33,197 bases of DNA from Candidatus Altimarinota bacterium (GTDB lineage: Bacteria > Patescibacteriota > Gracilibacteria > CAIRYL01): assembly GCA_016839105.1 (NCBI GenBank), contig DQTD01000040.1:1-33197 (forward strand), given 5' to 3'. This document shows, piece by piece, positions 22,485 to 31,387 of this stretch (positions are counted from its first letter, which is position 1; each line of letters opens with the position of its first letter). A program made the translations under genes and the position numbers. The notes beneath the pieces are model-generated. The model saw nothing but the letters and a program-made list of their open reading frames with translations. It was not told the DNA's origin and made no database searches.

Positions 22485-24641
22485 TTAACGGAGTAATACT
22501 CTTACAATTTTTAGGTCATCATATGAATATTTTTCGTTTAAGTCTTCAAAAATTGGTTTTAATCGGTCTGTTCCTAGTTTTTGAAAAGAATATTTAATTG
22601 TTTCAAATTGTGTTGGTTCTGGTAATAAATGTTGAATAAGAGTTAGATTTTCTGTACTTTCTAATATTTCAATAATGTATTTATAAATAGTTGAATCGCT
22701 TAAATCTAAAATTTTTACTATTTTTTTTACTGATTTTTTTTGTTCTAATAATTCTTGAGTTTTATTTATTCGAGATTGCTTGCTTGAAATTTTTGATTTT
22801 TTTATAGTATTGTTTGTTGTAAATTCTGAATTTTCAGGAATAGGTTTTGGTGATAAATTATACATAGTGGTCATTTTTTGTATTTTTTCTACAAAAATAT
22901 GTGCAAACTCTTCTTTTTTTTGTGCTCCAATTCCCGATATTTTTCCAAATCCACTTATGCTTTGGGGGAGATAATACGCAATTTCTTGTAATGTTGCATC
23001 ATTAAAAATAATGAATGGTGGTACATTTTTTTTATCAGCAATTTGTTTTCGCAACGCTTTTAATCCTGTAAAAACTTGTCTATCAAATTTTATAATTTGA
23101 TTAATTTTTCCAGAAATAATTTCTTCGTCGTGTTCAATTTGTGGTAAGAATATTTGTTCTTTATTTTTTAACCACTGTAATCCTATGGTTGAAAGTCTAT
23201 ATGTTGGAAAATCTCCATTATTTTTTTCAAGAATTTTTTTATGAATGAGATGTTCAAAAATATCGGATAATTCATTTTTTGAATATTGTTGCTCAATTCC
23301 CCAAACAGGTAAATTTTCATGCCCCCATTTAATAATATTTTGTGCTTTTGATCCACGAAGTACTCCGATTACATGATTTTTTCCAAATCTATTTTCGGTT
23401 CGTACAACCGCTGAAACAATTTTTTGTGTAATTTCAGTTGCGTCAAAAACATCATTTGAAGCGAGGCACACATCACAATTTCCACATTCTTCAAATTGTG
23501 GAGTTTCTCCAAAATACGAAATAATTTGGTACCATCTACAAATTCGTTGGTTGCAAAATTCCATGACTTCTTTCATTTTTACCCGTTCGAGGTCTGCTTG
23601 TTCTTTGTTATCTGATTTATCTATAAAAAATTCATGTTTTCTCGCATCTCCAGAGCTCCACATTAAAATACACTTACTTTCGAGTCCATCACGCCCAGCA
23701 CGTCCAGTTTCTTGATAATATCCTTCTAATGTTTTTGGGAAATTTGTATGAATTACGGTTCTGATATTCGGTTTATCTACTCCCATTCCAAAGGCAATTG
23801 TGGCGGTTACTACTTGAATATCATCTTTTAAAAATTGGTCTTGGACAGCACTTCTTGTTTCGTGTGGAAGTCCCGCATGATACGCTTTTGCTTTTACTCC
23901 TTCTTGCTGAAGCATTTCAGCAATTTCTTCTGTTTCTTTTCGTGAATAACAATAAATAATAGTTGCATCATCTTTATTTTTTGTGCAATGGTCCACTATT
24001 TTGTGTTTCATATTTCGCTTTGGTGTTATTTGTAGCGATAAATTTTTTCTATAAAAACTCGATTGAAAAATATTTACATCTTCTAATCGTAAGCATGAAA
24101 CTATATCTTTTTGTACTTTTGGTGTGGCACTTGCAGTAAGTGCAATAATTGGAAGGTGTGGAAATTGTGATTTAAATAATTGTAAATTTCGATAATCTGG
24201 ACGGAAATCATGTCCCCATTGAGAAATACAATGAGCTTCGTCTACGGCAATTCCAGATAAATTTATACGTTTTAACCATGCAATAAAATTTGGATTTCCA
24301 AGTCGTTCTGGAGCTATATAGAGTAATTTATATTCTCCCGATTCTGCATTTTGCATAATCGCCGATTGCTCTATTGGGCTGAGTGTTGAGTTTAAAAATA
24401 TTGCAGAAATTCCCATACTTTGTAGCGCATCAACCTGATCTTTCATTAGTGCTATTAACGGTGAAATAACCAGCATTGTTCCTTCTTTCATGAGGGCTGG
24501 AATTTGATAACAAATCGATTTACCTCCTCCTGTTGGCATTAAAACAAGTGTATCTTTTTTATTGGTAAACGATGAAATAACCTCTTCTTGCAAAGGGCGA
24601 AATTTTTGGTATCCAAAATATTGAGAGAGAAGAGAATGCAT
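22485..24641 (-). CDS. recQ: ATP-dependent DNA helicase RecQ
   Basis: 3'-5' superfamily 2 helicase for recombination and fork repair. 718 residues: FRPLQ (14-18), Walker A MPTGGGKS (35-42), DEAH (134-137) followed by the RecQ-specific CISQWGHDFRP loop, motif VI QETGRAGRDG, and the zinc-binding cysteines of the RQC region (CNQRICRWYQ ... ECGNCDVC). A winged-helix RQC domain follows, then an HRDC domain (about 515-595) and a C-terminal helix-turn-helix (about 625-665, KSVKKIVKILDLSDSTIYKYI). This is the full long form. It is the only gene of its unit, convergent with secY. The ATG at 24641 is the first start consistent with the family. Confidence 0.97.
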   Translation of the reverse strand: MHSLLSQYFGYQKFRPLQEEVISSFTNKKDTLVLMPTGGGKSICYQIPALMKEGTMLVISPLIALMKDQVDALQSMGISAIFLNSTLSPIEQSAIMQNAESGEYKLLYIAPERLGNPNFIAWLKRINLSGIAVDEAHCISQWGHDFRPDYRNLQLFKSQFPHLPIIALTASATPKVQKDIVSCLRLEDVNIFQSSFYRKNLSLQITPKRNMKHKIVDHCTKNKDDATIIYCYSRKETEEIAEMLQQEGVKAKAYHAGLPHETRSAVQDQFLKDDIQVVTATIAFGMGVDKPNIRTVIHTNFPKTLEGYYQETGRAGRDGLESKCILMWSSGDARKHEFFIDKSDNKEQADLERVKMKEVMEFCNQRICRWYQIISYFGETPQFEECGNCDVCLASNDVFDATEITQKIVSAVVRTENRFGKNHVIGVLRGSKAQNIIKWGHENLPVWGIEQQYSKNELSDIFEHLIHKKILEKNNGDFPTYRLSTIGLQWLKNKEQIFLPQIEHDEEIISGKINQIIKFDRQVFTGLKALRKQIADKKNVPPFIIFNDATLQEIAYYLPQSISGFGKISGIGAQKKEEFAHIFVEKIQKMTTMYNLSPKPIPENSEFTTNNTIKKSKISSKQSRINKTQELLEQKKSVKKIVKILDLSDSTIYKYIIEILESTENLTLIQHLLPEPTQFETIKYSFQKLGTDRLKPIFEDLNEKYSYDDLKIVRVLLR

Positions 24642-24699: not shown

Positions 24700-26544
24700 T
24701 TAAATTATTGCAATTGAATGATAATTTTTTTTATTATTTTGATAATAAAGGTCTATTAAATCTGCATGATACATTCTCATACATCCATGGCTTGCAGAGG
24801 ATCCGACCATTGTAATGCTTTGTTCTTTATTTGTTGCATGCACACCTACTCCATCTCCATCTTTAATAGAATAAAACAATGTAGAAACGGTTACTTTCCC
24901 ACTTTGTACAGAGGGTATATATGCATTTTTAGAATATTTCTGTTTTGTTCGTTTACTCCGTTTTTTTAATTTAATTTCGTCTGAAAATTTCTTATTGTAT
25001 GCAGTAGGACTCATTCTGTCTTCATTAGACAAAACTTTTCCAAGCCCACCTTTTTTCATTATTCCCATTTCGAAGATACCCTTTGGGGTTCTGTGCCCTC
25101 TTGCTCCAATGGCAGTTTTATATACTTTTTCATACACAAACCCAGTTTCATTTGAGCTGACTACATATAAATTTTTTGTTTTGTAGTCTAATAATAAACC
25201 TTTTTTCTTATTAAGAAATAAACGTTTTTGTAATCTTTGAAATGGACGAGTTTTAGCAAGTCTATTCTCTAGATTTTGAATTTCTGCTCCTTTTTTACCA
25301 TTTTTTGTTATTTTTGGTACTCTTGAAGAAAAATTCATATATTTTTTATATGTCTTATATCGGGGTTTATCAAATTTCTCTAATTGTGTTATTATTTGTA
25401 ATCGTGCAATTTCAGCATTTCCAGATAGTTTTGTGTCAATTTTTCTTTTCCAAATTTTTTCTAAAGTAAATGTACCAATGTCTCCATCTGTCTTTTTAAA
25501 CTTTAATATCGTTTGAATACGATTCGCAAACGTAATTTCTGCATTTTTTCCTTGTGGAAGTTGTATGTTTAGAAGTCTTGCTAATCCTCTTTCTTTGTTA
25601 TTACTGCGTGCTAATTGTTCAAGTTCCCAAGGGTCTATGTTTTTTAATGCACCTATACTCAGGTTTTGTAATTTTTCATTTAATTCTTCTTTTCTTTGTT
25701 TTAAAAATGTAGGATTTTTTTGTTGTAAAAATTTCAATAATGTTCCAGATCCAATTTGAGTATCAATATTTTGCATGTTTAAAGCACGCTGAAAAATATC
25801 TCCAAATTCTTCAAGTTTTTTTTGAATTTCTTGTTTAAATATTTTTTTAAATCCTAAAATTTCTGCTATTTTTTTATTGTGTAGTCCACGTGTTCCATAT
25901 AATTCGGAAATCTCAAGTTTCTCTTTGCTTGATAAATTATCAAGTCTTTTTTTCATATATTCTACAGATTTATTTATATCTATAGATTTTTTATTAATTT
26001 CAGGTTTTTTATCTTGATTTTCAGCTTTCGCTCTTCTTTTATTTGGCTCTGTTTGTACTAAACTGATAAATTTTAAAATAGTATCTTTCCCAATAATTCC
26101 ATCAGCTTTATTTCTTTTATCTGTATCATTTATTTTCATTCCTAGTGCTTCTTGAAATGCAAAGCCAAAATCTTTTAAAGCAGTATTACTATCTCCTATA
26201 TTTACATGCAAAATATCAAGAATTGTTTGATTTGTTATATTTTTTCTATTTTGTAATGCAATAATATTCTTTATCATGTCAGTCGTTATATCAAATGGAG
26301 TCGTAAATAATCCATTTGTTAATTTTTCTTTTAAAACTGAATATTTATCAAAAAGGCGTACTACTTCTATTTTTTGTTGAAGTTCTGTGAAACCGTCTTT
26401 TGAATCTTTACGAATATTTGTAATTTGATTTTTTAAATCTTCAGGAGAAACTAATTCTTTAGTATGTTTTATGTTTAAAAAACTTTTTAATGTATTATTA
26501 GGTGACATATTTTTTGATGCTAATGATGAAGAAAGTTGTGTCAT
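24700..26544 (-). CDS. L,D-transpeptidase (YkuD), signal-less, second of a tandem pair
   Basis: Predicted peptidoglycan 3-3 cross-linking or protein-anchoring enzyme with a catalytic Cys. The C-terminal YkuD domain (about 450-614) has His569 (VHATN), Ser585, His586 and Cys588 in SHGCMRM, the canonical active site. Upstream there are several PG-binding-1-like units (about 125-165, 240-285 and 325-365) with the DGxIGxxTLxxI pattern. The N-terminus (MTQLSSSLASKNM) is polar, and no signal peptide or transmembrane segment is seen in 614 residues, which is odd for an enzyme that must act outside the membrane. It starts six bases after the stop of the upstream paralogue, so the two form an operon. 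Cytoplasmic retention, non-classical export or a missed upstream start are possible, but no frame is open upstream. Confidence 0.85.
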   Translation of the reverse strand: MTQLSSSLASKNMSPNNTLKSFLNIKHTKELVSPEDLKNQITNIRKDSKDGFTELQQKIEVVRLFDKYSVLKEKLTNGLFTTPFDITTDMIKNIIALQNRKNITNQTILDILHVNIGDSNTALKDFGFAFQEALGMKINDTDKRNKADGIIGKDTILKFISLVQTEPNKRRAKAENQDKKPEINKKSIDINKSVEYMKKRLDNLSSKEKLEISELYGTRGLHNKKIAEILGFKKIFKQEIQKKLEEFGDIFQRALNMQNIDTQIGSGTLLKFLQQKNPTFLKQRKEELNEKLQNLSIGALKNIDPWELEQLARSNNKERGLARLLNIQLPQGKNAEITFANRIQTILKFKKTDGDIGTFTLEKIWKRKIDTKLSGNAEIARLQIITQLEKFDKPRYKTYKKYMNFSSRVPKITKNGKKGAEIQNLENRLAKTRPFQRLQKRLFLNKKKGLLLDYKTKNLYVVSSNETGFVYEKVYKTAIGARGHRTPKGIFEMGIMKKGGLGKVLSNEDRMSPTAYNKKFSDEIKLKKRSKRTKQKYSKNAYIPSVQSGKVTVSTLFYSIKDGDGVGVHATNKEQSITMVGSSASHGCMRMYHADLIDLYYQNNKKNYHSIAII

Positions 26545-26550
26545 AAAATT

Positions 26551-28506
26551 TTAGACAATTAAAATACCTGTATATCGAATATCGTTGTTATATGCCGAGA
26601 GTGTAGCAATGTCTGCAGGTAATATTCTTATACATCCACTGGAATTATTAGTTCCTAATGCGGTAATAGAGGAAATTTTATCTGATCCATGACCTGCCAG
26701 TCCAGACGCATCAAACCCCATTCTTAACGTAATCATAGATGGTTTTTTGTTACGAGGAATACTGAGTGTATTTTCATGTCCTTTTCCTTTTGGATATTGT
26801 CCATTTGTTTTTTTATCTTTAAATGAAACAATTTTTGTTAATGTTTTATTTTTTATCCCTATAGTCTCATGAAAATAATGATATCCAGCAGGAGTCGCAT
26901 GTCCTTTTACGAAAGTATTTGTAAAATGAAATTGCCATTTTGAAACAGTATCGGTTCCACCTTCTTTAAAACTTCCATCTGGCTGTCTCGTTGCATGTAT
27001 TTTACTTGTACCATATGTATTTATATAAAAATTTGGGTCTAATACTGATTGTTTATTTATTTTTTGTCCAATTGATGTTTTTACTGCCATACTAAGTGTA
27101 ACCCCTCCATCGTTATTGGCTTCAACTACATATAAATTCTTTGTTCTGGAATCGAGTAATAAACTTTTTTGTCCTTTATTTGCGTTCTTTATTAATATGT
27201 TAAATCTAGGTGTTCCGTCAGATTTTAGTGATTTCTTTGCCCATGCTATTACATTATTTTCTTCAGCTTTTTCAACGGTACGAGCTGTATATGTCATACT
27301 ATCTTTAAACTTTTGATAATCAGAAAATTTTTTTACTGCTTTATCTACTTTCACTCGAATTTCTTCAGATTTTCCATCAAGTTTATCATTTAACTTACGT
27401 TCCCAGATTTTTTTTAGTGTATAATTCCCAATTAATCCATCAATTCCTTTTGACCCACTTCCTTTTAACCCAATAGTTTTTTGTACGTGTTTTGCAAATG
27501 TTACTTTTGCAACTTTTCTTAAATCAACTTTAAGAATTTTTGCTAAAGCCGCTAATGTATCTTTTGATCCATTTCTTAATAATTGCTCAATTTCATATTG
27601 ATGGCTTTTAATTTTTCCTTCTGTTAAATTTTCTAAATTTTCATTTAAAGTTTCATTTAAAGTTTCGTTATTTTTTTTAACTTCTTCTGTTTCTCTCTTC
27701 TTTGGTTTTTTGTTCTTTTCTATTTGAATTAATTTTCCACCTGAATTTACTGAAAATTTGTACACCTTCTGTTGTGTATAATATAGATATGTTTCGTCAT
27801 GTAGCTGTGGAAGTATTGAAAGTTCTCCTCTTGCATCTTTTACATAATATTTATTATCAAATTCTACAATTTTTTCTCCGTTATCTAATTGTAATATTAT
27901 TTTAGAAGAATTTGGAGTTTGTTGAATTTTTTTGGTTGGTATAATTTTTGAAGAAATAACTGATTGTCCATTTTTATTAGTAATGGTTATTTGATATTTT
28001 TTATCATTTTTATCGGTAAAAATATTATTAGGTAATTTTTTTGCTATTCCTGTTTTTGTTTTTTCATAAATATTATCATTATCTATATATAAATATGCAT
28101 CAATTGTTTTAAAATGCATTATAGATATAATTTCATTTTTGTGATTAATACTTACATAGAGAGGAATATTCTTTGCATTGTTATGATTTTGAACTTGTAG
28201 AAAATGACCACTTTTATCAAAATGTGCATTATATTGTCCTAATTCTCCAAAACTAACAGAATAGTTATTCTCATCAATTTTTTCAACAACATTACTATTT
28301 ATAATAATATTTTTATCATTATTTTTTACAGTACTTTGTAATGTATTTAATCGTTGTTTTAATGAGAGATTTTGCAAAGTTTCATTTGTTTTTAGGTTTT
28401 TTTCTCTCGCTTCAATTTTTCCCTCTTGCAGGGAATCTTGAATTTCTTCGTCTTTTTTATTTTGTTGTTCTGCGAAAGTTAGTTGGTATTGTTCTCCTGT
28501 AGCCAT
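26551..28506 (-). CDS. L,D-transpeptidase-like protein with SSGC active site, first of a tandem pair
   Basis: 651 residues. The last 330 or so align by eye with the downstream paralogue: a PG-binding-like unit (about 330-370, IDGLIGNYTLKKIWERKL), LLLDSRTKNLYVVEA, and the YkuD core. The active-site region has His606 (AGHGS) and Cys625 in SSGCIRI, so the His of the usual SHGC is Ser623. YkuD proteins with SxGC[IV]R exist, so activity is still possible. The core holds a longer insertion than the partner (about 505-590). Residues 1-280 are beta-rich, polar, Lys/Asn-rich and unrecognised. No signal peptide is present (MATGEQYQLTFAEQ). Transcription likely starts from the duplicated region at 28529-28672. 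Confidence 0.8.
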   Translation of the reverse strand: MATGEQYQLTFAEQQNKKDEEIQDSLQEGKIEAREKNLKTNETLQNLSLKQRLNTLQSTVKNNDKNIIINSNVVEKIDENNYSVSFGELGQYNAHFDKSGHFLQVQNHNNAKNIPLYVSINHKNEIISIMHFKTIDAYLYIDNDNIYEKTKTGIAKKLPNNIFTDKNDKKYQITITNKNGQSVISSKIIPTKKIQQTPNSSKIILQLDNGEKIVEFDNKYYVKDARGELSILPQLHDETYLYYTQQKVYKFSVNSGGKLIQIEKNKKPKKRETEEVKKNNETLNETLNENLENLTEGKIKSHQYEIEQLLRNGSKDTLAALAKILKVDLRKVAKVTFAKHVQKTIGLKGSGSKGIDGLIGNYTLKKIWERKLNDKLDGKSEEIRVKVDKAVKKFSDYQKFKDSMTYTARTVEKAEENNVIAWAKKSLKSDGTPRFNILIKNANKGQKSLLLDSRTKNLYVVEANNDGGVTLSMAVKTSIGQKINKQSVLDPNFYINTYGTSKIHATRQPDGSFKEGGTDTVSKWQFHFTNTFVKGHATPAGYHYFHETIGIKNKTLTKIVSFKDKKTNGQYPKGKGHENTLSIPRNKKPSMITLRMGFDASGLAGHGSDKISSITALGTNNSSGCIRILPADIATLSAYNNDIRYTGILIV

Positions 28507-28509
28507 TTT

Positions 28510-28530
28510 TTATATTTATATTTATATTTA
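28510..28530. repeat. TATATT hexanucleotide run in the transpeptidase leader
   Basis: About 3.5 copies of TATATT lie directly upstream of the first transpeptidase start (minus strand), where the ribosome would bind. No Shine-Dalgarno motif is present. Slippage here could change leader length. Confidence 0.6.
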
Positions 28531-28549
28531 TATGAATTTATTTCATATA

Positions 28550-28558
28550 ATTATATCA
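28550..28558 (-). promoter_or_regulatory. Extended -10 promoter of the transpeptidase operon, proximal copy
   Basis: On the minus strand, TGA followed by TATAAT (28555 down to 28550) forms an extended -10. The start of transcription would be about 28543, some 36 bases before the ATG at 28506. No good -35 is seen. The TATATGAA/TTCATATA palindrome lies right downstream of it, where a repressor could block initiation. Confidence 0.5.
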
Positions 28559-28621
28559 AGATTTTATCTTTTAGGCTAGAGTTATTTTGATTTTTAGAAT
28601 TATATGAATTTATTTCATATA

Positions 28622-28630
28622 ATTATATCA
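28622..28630 (-). promoter_or_regulatory. Extended -10 promoter of the transpeptidase operon, distal copy
   Basis: The same TGA-TATAAT as in the proximal copy, 72 bases further from the gene, created by the tandem duplication. It may give a second, longer transcript. Confidence 0.45.
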
Positions 28631-28711
28631 AGATTTTATCTTTTATGCTAGAGTTATTTTGATTTTTAGAATTACAATAAAAAATAATTATTACCATTTT
28701 CAATTCTTCTC

Positions 28712-31387
28712 ATGACAAATAATACTTCAGAAATTAAAGAAATTTTCTTAAAAGATTACACCGTTTCAAATTATCAAATATCAACTGTAGATATAACATT
28801 TGATATTTTTGAAGAATATACACTTGTTACGAATGTTTCAAAATTTGTAAAAATTACTTCTGATGCAAAAAATTTGGAGCTAAACGGTGAAGAATTAGAT
28901 TTACAAGAAATTTATATAAATAATAAAAAATTAGCCAATAATCCTCTTTCAAACTCTGATATATATGAAGTTTCTGAAAATTTTTTAATTATAAAAAATA
29001 TAGAAAAATATACAGATGAAAATTCTGCATTTACACTAAAAACTATAGTGAAAATTGACCCAGAAAAAAATAAACAACTCATGGGATTATATAAATCTGA
29101 TGGAATGTATTGCACACAAAATGAACCAGAAGGATTTAGACGCATTACCTATCATTTAGACCGACCAGATGTAATGAGTTTGTATACCACTACAATTATT
29201 GCAGATAAAACTTTGTACCCAGTATTGCTTTCAAATGGAAATAAAACAGAAGCAAAATGTTTTGAAGAAGATGAAAGTTTGGGAGAAAATAGACATATGG
29301 TAAAATGGGAAGATCCGTTTAAAAAACCATGTTATTTATTTGCACTTATCGCAGGAGATTTAGAATTTACTCAAGACAGTTTTACAACCATGACCGGTAG
29401 AAATATAATTTTGCAAATTTTTACTGATGCAAAAAATCAAAGTAGAATAGACCATGCAATGGTATCTTTGAAAAAAGCAATGAAATGGGACGAAGAACGA
29501 TTTGGTCGAGAATACGATTTAGATATTTTCATGATTGTTGCAGTAGACGCTTTTAATTCTGGTGCAATGGAAAATAAAGGATTAAATATTTTTAATTCAG
29601 CGGCTATTTTATGCGATCAAAAAAGTGCAACAGACCGAGATTTTCAATATATTGAAGCGGTAGTCGCACATGAATATTTTCATAATTGGACAGGAGACAG
29701 AATTACATGTCGAGATTGGTTTCAATTAACGCTGAAGGAAGGATTGACTGTATTTAGAGATGCAGAATTTTCAGCAGATATGGGAGACAGAATTTTAAAA
29801 CGAATTGAAGACGCAAGTTATATGAGAGCAGGACAATTTGCAGAAGACGCAGGACCAATATCGCACCCAATTCAACCACAATCATTTATTCAAATAGAAA
29901 ATTTTTATACACAAACAGTATATGAAAAAGGGGCTGAAGTTATTCGTATGCTACAAACATTATATGGCAAAGAAAATTTTAGAAAGGCTTTAGATTTTTA
30001 TTTTGAAACATATGACGGACAAGCAGTAACAATAGAAGAATTTTTATTCAGTTTCGAAAAAACTTTAGATATAGATTTAACACAATTTAAAAATTCGTGG
30101 TATTTTCAAGCAGGAACACCAACCGTAAAAATTACAGATGAATATAATTCAGATGAAAAAACATATACTCTCGTAGTGGAACAAAGTTGTAATTATCCAG
30201 ATAAAACAAATAATCCAGAACATAAATATACAAATTATCATTTTCCACTTCAATTTGGATTATTAAACCAATACGGAAAAAATCTTGATTTAGGAGAACA
30301 GTCTGATATTTTAGAAATTAGAAAACAGTCGGAAACATTTGTATTTAAAAATATTGAAGAAAAACCACTGCCGTCATTATTACGAAATTTTTCAGCTCCA
30401 GTAAAACTAGAATATAATTATACGTTAGAACAAGACTTGTTTTTATTTATGAATGATTCAGATTTATTTAATAAATATGAAGCAGGACAACGGGTTGCTC
30501 GGCGAGTGATTACAGATATTATGCTAGAAAAAATTGAAGAATTTCCAGAAGCTGTACTTAATGCATATTTAAAAATTATAAAAAACTCCGATTTATCAAA
30601 TGGATTTAAAGCGGAATGTTTAACTCTTCCTGCATTATTTACTATCGTTGAGCCTTTTGAAATATATGAATATAAAAAAGCATTTGAAGCAAAGAAAAAG
30701 TATCAAAATATTATTGCGACTCATTTAAAAGAAGTATTTTTAAATACATATCATAAAAATCAAAAAGATATATATTCAATTACTTCAAACGATATTGGAT
30801 CTCGAGCATTAAAAAATACATGTTTATCATTTTTATCAGAATCTGATACAGATTATACAAATTTGATTATGACACAGTTTGAAACTGCAAATAATATGAC
30901 AGATAAATTACGTGCTTTAGCATTATTATGTAAAAAAGATTCGCAAGAAAAAACAAACGCATTATTTGATTTTAATGCAGAATGGGCAAATGACCCACTT
31001 GTGATGAATAAATATTTTGCAGTGCAAGCTTCTACCCCAAATGAAAAAAGTTTAGAAATTATTAAAGAATTAGAAAAAACTGAAAGCTTTGACTTAAAAA
31101 ATCCTAATAAAATTCGCGCATTATATGGTGCATTTGGGCGTTCTGTTATAAATTTTCACAATGAAGACGGAAAAGCATATGAATTCATGGCAAACAAAAT
31201 TATAGAAATAGATATTTTTAATAATAAAGCGTCAAGTGGATTAGTGCATGTTTTTGATGAATATGCAAAAATGCCAGAAAATTTAAAATTGCTTATAAAA
31301 ATTCAGTTAGAAAAAATTATTAATTCTGTAAATATTTCAGATGCACTTTTTGAAATTGTAACAAAAATATTAAAAAGTGGTGAATAA
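28712..31387 (+). CDS. pepN: Aminopeptidase N, M1 family (PepN type)
   Basis: Zinc metallopeptidase that removes N-terminal residues from peptides, likely cytosolic since no signal peptide is seen. 891 residues. The GAMEN substrate motif is at 284-288, the zinc site HEYFH at 320-324, and the third ligand Glu343 in KEGLTVFRD. Flanking phrases (FNSAAILCDQKSATDRDFQYIEAVVAHEYFHNWTGDRITCRDWFQLTLKEG) and the long C-terminal half match the E. coli PepN (DUF3458-containing) subgroup and not the eukaryotic type. For a cell with few biosynthetic genes it would recover amino acids from peptides. It runs to within two bases of the convergent lipoprotein gene, with no terminator between. Confidence 0.95.
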   Translation: MTNNTSEIKEIFLKDYTVSNYQISTVDITFDIFEEYTLVTNVSKFVKITSDAKNLELNGEELDLQEIYINNKKLANNPLSNSDIYEVSENFLIIKNIEKYTDENSAFTLKTIVKIDPEKNKQLMGLYKSDGMYCTQNEPEGFRRITYHLDRPDVMSLYTTTIIADKTLYPVLLSNGNKTEAKCFEEDESLGENRHMVKWEDPFKKPCYLFALIAGDLEFTQDSFTTMTGRNIILQIFTDAKNQSRIDHAMVSLKKAMKWDEERFGREYDLDIFMIVAVDAFNSGAMENKGLNIFNSAAILCDQKSATDRDFQYIEAVVAHEYFHNWTGDRITCRDWFQLTLKEGLTVFRDAEFSADMGDRILKRIEDASYMRAGQFAEDAGPISHPIQPQSFIQIENFYTQTVYEKGAEVIRMLQTLYGKENFRKALDFYFETYDGQAVTIEEFLFSFEKTLDIDLTQFKNSWYFQAGTPTVKITDEYNSDEKTYTLVVEQSCNYPDKTNNPEHKYTNYHFPLQFGLLNQYGKNLDLGEQSDILEIRKQSETFVFKNIEEKPLPSLLRNFSAPVKLEYNYTLEQDLFLFMNDSDLFNKYEAGQRVARRVITDIMLEKIEEFPEAVLNAYLKIIKNSDLSNGFKAECLTLPALFTIVEPFEIYEYKKAFEAKKKYQNIIATHLKEVFLNTYHKNQKDIYSITSNDIGSRALKNTCLSFLSESDTDYTNLIMTQFETANNMTDKLRALALLCKKDSQEKTNALFDFNAEWANDPLVMNKYFAVQASTPNEKSLEIIKELEKTESFDLKNPNKIRALYGAFGRSVINFHNEDGKAYEFMANKIIEIDIFNNKASSGLVHVFDEYAKMPENLKLLIKIQLEKIINSVNISDALFEIVTKILKSGE

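Follow-up and report, generated by a model that had tools for sequence, protein, structure and literature searches.

YkuD of Bacillus subtilis carries a LysM unit and is not known to have a signal peptide, and neither do the two YkuD proteins described here appear to have one. These proteins, A and B, are encoded side by side in a Candidatus Altimarinota bacterium of the class Gracilibacteria. The window that we analysed is the whole of contig DQTD01000040.1 (33,197 nucleotides), which is contig C22 of a genome of 860,266 bases and 102 contigs (GCA_016839105.1, here G000). Judging from its class, the organism is presumably an epibiont. Other YkuD proteins offer different precedents. ElsL of Acinetobacter baumannii is a leaderless YkuD L,D-carboxypeptidase and is cytosolic (PMC8649774). 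Tlde1a of Salmonella is a type VI secretion system (T6SS) effector with an altered YkuD fold that acts on the peptidoglycan (PG) of another cell (PMC9638812). VirB1-like hydrolases are wall-active enzymes of cells with a type IV secretion system (T4SS), and have transglycosylase and amidohydrolase/peptidase domains (PMC12102498).

B (651 residues; 26551–28506) is the upstream gene and A (614 residues; 24700–26544) the downstream gene. Both are on the minus strand, as are all features of A and B given below, and both are open reading frames (ORFs) with a match to PF03734. The initial annotation described two large YkuD ORFs six bases apart, and these are present. Like B. subtilis YkuD (1y7m, 2mtz), A and B have the catalytic domain and its motif; the SSGC of B, like the SKGC of the B. 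subtilis protein, has a residue other than histidine in second place. The B. subtilis protein comprises 164 residues, whereas A and B are far longer and have PG_binding_1-like units and large N-terminal regions. A and B resemble ElsL in having a YkuD domain without a signal peptide, as judged for A and B by hydropathy. The motif printed for Tlde1, [S/T]HGC with its spacing, fits A; B has the spacing but SSGC (PMC9638812). The gene for Tlde1a lies in a T6SS island and is accompanied by an immunity gene. Beside A and B, inspection revealed no immunity-like gene, and T6SS genes were not searched for. Unlike VirB1-like hydrolases, A and B have a YkuD domain and lie on a contig other than that of the VirB4-type gene. 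Our preferred but tentative reading is that A and B are wall enzymes that would exit the cytoplasm without Sec, through either a T4SS or lysis. We infer their extracytoplasmic action, route, target and chemistry.

Signal peptides were assessed using hydropathy. In the first 60 residues, the best 11-residue Kyte-Doolittle mean was 0.04 for A and -0.30 for B. The same measure gave 2.68–3.20 for four controls from this genome, each with an N-terminus of signal or membrane type. Across the whole protein, the best 19-residue mean was 0.85 for A and 0.80 for B. In-frame stops occur one codon upstream of the B start and two codons upstream of the A start. Hence, no upstream start can supply a signal peptide. 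TGA is a stop in this genome; it ends 4 of 178 sampled ORFs of at least 200 residues, and prfB scores above its cut-off. Hence, read-through of TGA cannot hide a leader either, and we rejected both ways of concealing one. Among 14 window genes examined, none ends with TGA, and in-frame TGA is seen in other genomes of the class. We give almost no credence to the idea that misassembly, a wrongly chosen start or the wrong genetic code accounts for the lack of a leader. The assembly is fragmented, but the upstream stops, the use of TGA as a stop and a second species with an equally leaderless pair all argue against an artefact. Thus, hydropathy and the upstream stops bear out the description of A and B as lacking a signal peptide or membrane helix. 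The window itself codes for SecY and Lgt, so an ordinary export route exists.

On sequence grounds, the leaderless pair holds in a second species of the genus (G003). Here, the genes have the same order and are divergent from pepN, with one 137-residue ORF between. Neither B' (722 residues, SNGC) nor A' (633 residues, SHGC) has a signal. The start of A' is ATG 8294; in alignments and models, A' is one residue longer at this end. Starting from an earlier ATG (8216), the protein would have 659 residues and a best 11-residue hydropathy of 1.27 in the first 60, far below the controls. The initial annotation had allowed for an upstream start that adds a signal, or for homologues with clear signals. 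Instead, we found stops within two codons in frame and an orthologous pair that also lacks signals.

Relatives of the pair are few. Searching 117 genomes with A gave matches in three: its own, G003 and G001. The equivalent search with B gave matches in four; the same three and, weakly, G113. In G001, the last 442 residues of A are found at a contig end. The G001 matches of B fall on this A fragment, so B is not established in that genome. No relative was found in named collections scanned with A alone. Scanning the same collections with an alignment (A1) identified two loci, which correspond to G003:C31 and G001:C26. The N-terminal parts, about 280 residues in length, had been singled out as unique. 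We compared them (275–279 residues) with nine genomes and found no relative at a meaningful E value beyond the A orthologues of the genus. The N-terminal region of A (residues 1–285; 25690–26544) is 55.4% identical in G003. The N-terminal region of B (residues 1–278; 27673–28506) is related to that of B' (27.8% identity, z 8.2 by direct alignment), and not to A; the genome search missed this relationship.

We next compared A and B with YkuD proteins across the class, matches to which occur in 61 of 145 sampled genomes. There were 75 match rows. Of these, 68 were analysed after removal of five pair genes (A, B, A', B' and the A'' of G001), merging of the G010:C14 pieces and omission of G071:C1, which was not fetched. 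We defined a hydrophobic segment as a 13-mer with a mean of at least 1.8 upstream of the domain. This segment is present in 54 of the 68 rows, eight more are borderline (1.54–1.79) and six clearly lack it. Hence, export or anchoring of such enzymes is the rule in the class. The G117 protein (L088) passed the threshold but is ambiguous. In four rows (L038, L055, L083 and L092), the frame is open up to the limit of the fetched sequence. Genetic codes were picked by frame length, which assigned table 25 to 19 rows, some of them probably from table-11 genomes. The six rows without a segment (L053, L054, L055, L057, L067 and L083) are the third YkuD proteins of G001 and G003, and the YkuD proteins of G029, G109, G125 and G143. 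Leaderless YkuD proteins are also found in four families of the class besides that of the pair. The full frames of the G125 and G143 proteins (1385 and 884 residues, respectively) both start without a signal. The former (G125:C18, L093:3235-7991) combines VanY, DUF1615 and YkuD; the 3' end of its gene overlaps that of an opposite-strand gene encoding 200 residues with a signal-like start. That A and B are leaderless in both G000 and G003, unlike 54 of the 68 class rows, is one reason for favouring non-Sec export.

In a tree of 73 rows, the 12 rows labelled leaderless need five changes, compared with a mean of 11.3 for shuffled labels. These labels count the ambiguous L088 as leaderless and leave L083 unlabelled, though its full frame later proved leaderless. 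The tree rests on 184 columns and has long branches, so the positions of L067, L074, L052 and L002 are uncertain. In the tree, A and A' form a group (100/80) that is joined by the A of G001 (100/99), and B groups with B' (96/85). Because A and B group across species, the two copies are older than the species split.

The shared C-terminal part of A and B, which the initial annotation had noted, was confirmed by BLASTP. Residues 286–614 of A align with residues 285–651 of B (30.9% identity, 385 columns, E 2e-29). The N-terminal parts (A 1–285 and B 1–278) have no detectable relation (z 0.8 against 200 shuffles). Against PF03734 (YkuD; cut-off 23.4 bits), A scored 46.6 bits (E 7e-12) and, in a second run, 49.6 bits. 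B scored 22.7 bits (E 1.7e-4) in one run and 23.4 bits in another. The catalytic domain of A, placed by PF03734 and by structural alignment to 1y7m, comprises residues 452–601 (24742–25191). The best-matching part of the domain in B comprises residues 534–637 (26596–26907). A structural model of A had a mean predicted local distance difference test (pLDDT) score of 54.9, with 71–88 by blocks over residues 281–400 and poor values in 494–588. When this model is compared with known structures, most of the top rows are L,D-transpeptidases; 42 chains have Z of at least 5 and none has Z of at least 8. B. subtilis YkuD (1y7m) ranked second (Z 6.0, root-mean-square deviation 3.1, 97 residues) and we regard it as tied with the first-ranked 4xxt (Z 6.5). 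These rows cover mainly residues 429–614 and, with all Z values below 8, are supportive only. Foldseek returned no match to the A model under E 0.001; the best (E 0.21) was Bdellovibrio Bd1075. The B model had a mean pLDDT of 43.4, and its catalytic half was below 50.

The middle parts of A and B contain units with the pattern Q...G.IG..T. Using hhalign, these matched PG_binding_1-type units of the genus (probability 71%, E 4e-5). In A, one such unit precedes the catalytic domain (residues ~333–373; 25426–25548) and a further, weak unit is seen in the alignment at residues ~120–164 (26053–26187). In B, alignment and hhalign place a unit at residues ~331–376 (27379–27516). None of the three units has a Pfam match. 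For PF01471, contig C22 gave no match at E <= 1, and nor did seven units scanned singly. Hence, the claim of PG-binding-like units survives in weakened form, upheld by hhalign and left without support from Pfam.

Both proteins have a catalytic histidine and cysteine in an H...[S/T]xGC motif. In A, these are His569 (24838–24840) and Cys588 of SHGC (24781–24783). In B, they are His606 (26689–26691) and Cys625 of SSGC (26632–26634). The residues are invariant in all five aligned rows, 15 residues separate the histidine from the motif serine in both proteins, and each cysteine is the only one in its protein. The two motifs had therefore been read correctly at the outset. The suggestion that SSGC marks a form with modified activity did not survive. 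Among class rows, 65 of 68 have the [ST]xGC motif. The second residue is H in 35, M in 16, R in 4, A in 3, S in 2, N in 2 and Y, I or T in 1 each. Hence, it is not histidine in 30 of 65 rows, and alignment of B. subtilis YkuD places lysine there (SKGC). Since this position varies, SSGC alone says nothing about activity, and we rejected it as a sign of altered function.

What separates the copies, from the sequences compared, is a real difference in how fast the catalytic part changes. Between G000 and G003, this part is 85.6% identical for A and 34.9% for B. The middle parts differ little (59.5% for A, 56.7% for B) and the N-terminal parts give the values stated above. In the tree, the end branches of the B pair are 0.94 and 1.21, and those of the A pair 0.076 and 0.12. 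These differences, with a B protein barely at the YkuD cut-off, would be expected if A works and its relative B is decaying as constraint relaxes, the pair having no joint function. We consider this distinctly unlikely; B has an intact frame of 651 residues, retains its catalytic residues (His, Ser, Gly and Cys) and has a middle part that is 56.7% identical between the species. The fast change of B fits either adaptation or relaxed constraint, and the data do not choose.

The principal alternative assigns A and B to the cytoplasm, as L,D-carboxypeptidases that recycle wall material in the manner of ElsL, with extra domains that have another role. The genome has a third YkuD protein, on contig C88 (325 residues, STGC), with no N-terminal signal and a weak internal hydrophobic stretch (1.78, borderline). 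Directly before its gene is an ORF, truncated at its 5' end, that weakly matches GH3 / beta-N-acetylhexosaminidase (G000:C88, L098:3-2562). Such enzymes act in recycling, so the C88 locus favours a recycling role. YkuD proteins of the class also score weakly against the ElsL model NF040925: 14.6 bits for A, 16.4 for the C88 protein, 19.4 for A of G003, 24.5 for the third YkuD of G001 and 30.2 for G029. However, all are far below the cut-off of 270 bits and B gives no match. Moreover, ElsL orthologues are defined as proteins of 105–200 residues without a PG-binding domain (PMC8649774), a range and architecture from which A and B, at 614 and 651 residues, depart. Two adjacent 600-residue copies with near-zero cysteine and strong positive charge would also be unexpected of a recycling enzyme. 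Hence, we view a cytoplasmic role as possible but somewhat unlikely.

Composition was assessed in an own-genome sample of 232 ORFs, from which seven were dropped because their contigs were all N. A and B have no non-catalytic cysteine in 1265 residues; cysteine makes up 1.05% of 145 sampled proteins without transmembrane (TM) segments. Net charge per 100 residues is +8.3 for A and +4.8 for B, compared with a mean of -0.58 for the 145 proteins. Only 1 of 27 sampled no-TM proteins of at least 500 residues reached +3.5. Two other large, basic, cysteine-poor proteins of the genome have PG_binding_1 matches over the cut-off. The first, on contig C41 (L146:82-5841; 1919 residues), is leaderless and has a stop before its start. 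The second, on contig C102 (L148:40-4347; 1435 residues), resembles it; the two are paralogous (35% over 1265 columns). Because the C102 frame extends up to the end of the contig, the N-terminus of this protein is uncertain. Together, A, B and these two proteins have 0.13% cysteine and a net charge of +4.89 per 100 residues. Outside its own genome, the C41 protein has matches in G004 only, among 117 genomes, and a search of PDB chains gave none at E <= 0.1. Both giant proteins contain a GVHCAxYV-like stretch. The cysteine-poor, basic character of A and B, the leaderless C41 protein, the C88 YkuD protein with no signal at its N-terminus and the recurrence of leaderless YkuD proteins in the class form our second reason for favouring non-Sec export.

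Phage endolysins are often leaderless. The pair could thus be endolysin-type cargo of a phage or mobile element, released by its lysis. Consistent with this, the C41 and C102 proteins and a muramidase of G109 score against PHROGs endolysin families. A and B themselves have no PHROGs match at E <= 0.05. We also found no relative on viral contigs scanned with the alignment, none of A in phage records and none of B in plasmid records; the searches of B in phage records and of A in plasmid records were not made. Genes around the pair also argue against a mobile origin, and include recQ (22485–24641, minus strand), pepN (28712–31387, plus strand, opposite to the pair), secY and lgt; recQ and pepN flank the pair, and the pepN side is kept in G003. 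We therefore judge phage or mobile-element cargo very unlikely. Between B and pepN, at 28510–28674, there is a 72-base unit in 2.3 copies (93% matches).

If A and B are exported, T4SS parts of the genome could serve as their route, on the evidence of gene content. A VirB4-type ATPase scored over the cut-off in 9 of 10 genomes, including G000, G001, G003 and G004. In G000, it is on contig C99, where two T4SS pilin genes lie ~5 kb away; a coupling-protein-type ATPase is on contig C17. The phage or extracellular contractile injection system (eCIS) sheath PF04984 was found in none of 10 genomes; T6SS genes and those for twin-arginine translocation (Tat) were not searched for. T4SS are called widespread in Patescibacteria (PMC12102498), and type II and IV secretion genes have been reported in Gracilibacteria (PMC6851277, PMC11452946). 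In one Gracilibacterium genome, 104 proteins without a signal peptide were predicted by SecretomeP to be non-classically secreted (PMC6851277). Hence, non-classical secretion in a Gracilibacterium has already been predicted in print. For Vampirococcus, a predatory bacterium of the Candidate Phyla Radiation (CPR), wall hydrolases are predicted to be secreted (PMC8080830). The word 'transpeptidase' is absent from the main text of PMC6851277 and PMC11452946. For leaderless YkuD proteins in Patescibacteria or Gracilibacteria, no title was found among the matches listed, which is no proof of absence. The T4SS parts, the precedent of Tlde1a and the predicted non-classical secretion in a Gracilibacterium together provide our third reason for favouring export of A and B by a non-Sec route.

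Several observations weigh against such export. Leaderlessness was judged by a single signal test, hydropathy. The evidence for PG-binding units in A and B is weak. ElsL, itself a leaderless YkuD protein, is cytosolic. Of five genomes of the genus, two, G002 and G004 (81% and 76% complete), have no YkuD match, and G002 also has no VirB4-type match over the cut-off. The neighbours of the pair are recQ and pepN, no secretion genes are beside it and only pepN is kept in G003. Nothing in the sequence was found to tie A or B to the T4SS. In Gracilibacteria, VirB6 homologues are reported as absent and several T4SS parts as not near virB4 (PMC12102498), so the T4SS may be incomplete. Comparing A and B with the C41, C102 and C88 proteins by BLASTP (E <= 1) revealed no shared stretch beyond weak matches (E 0.57 or worse for C41 and C102). 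Nor is cysteine poverty specific, since 3 of 27 no-TM proteins of at least 500 residues have less than 0.2% cysteine, including RpoB at C18. Cysteine poverty is only moderate (0.60%) in proteins that have a hydrophobic N-terminus, and A' of G003 has four cysteines, three of them non-catalytic.

A further set of leaderless proteins was found in G109. In G109:C106 (L094:2439-8603), a leaderless YkuD protein, a leaderless muramidase (PF11860) and two more leaderless ORFs are encoded within 6.2 kb. Of the two further ORFs, one has weak endolysin and tail-lysozyme matches and one is of no known type; the last is on the other strand. The bodies of the four proteins differ but their first ~20 residues are common, with the pattern MKxLxK...Y. 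We searched seven genomes with a profile of this N-terminus (A5), which identified the four G109 genes, the only good matches in G109, and three weak matches (12.7–13.9 bits). There was no match in G000 or G125. Hence, the MKxLxK...Y stretch does not extend to the window pair. A broader idea is that Gracilibacteria have a set of leaderless wall enzymes, comprising YkuD pairs, giant PG-binding proteins and muramidase-YkuD clusters. This set would be non-Sec cargo, plausibly of the Patescibacterial T4SS, for use on the wall of a host or prey, and MKxLxK...Y, seen in at least one further family (that of G109), would be a loading signal. We consider this generalisation unlikely as it stands.

The preferred reading of the window pair suggests the following mechanism. 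A and B would be YkuD enzymes that act on peptidoglycan, as L,D-transpeptidases and/or L,D-carboxypeptidases, outside the cytoplasm and with no Sec or Tat signal. They would be synthesised in soluble form, with no cysteine other than that of the active site. The type IV secretion machinery of Patescibacteria, or cell lysis, may release them. The PG-binding-like units would then bind wall material, and the enzymes would reach the peptidoglycan of the producing cell or, more likely, of an attached cell. In this scheme, A would be a constrained enzyme and B an old tandem relative, fast-changing except for its catalytic His, Ser, Gly and Cys. Such change would be expected of an enzyme that adapts to its target, or of relaxed constraint.

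On the question of how Patescibacteria breach or reshape the walls of the cells on which they live, the leaderless pair in two species, with the further leaderless wall enzymes of the genome and class, provides concrete candidates for non-Sec export and for action on the wall of a partner cell. If they are cytoplasmic instead, A and B would represent recycling carboxypeptidases that are unusually large.

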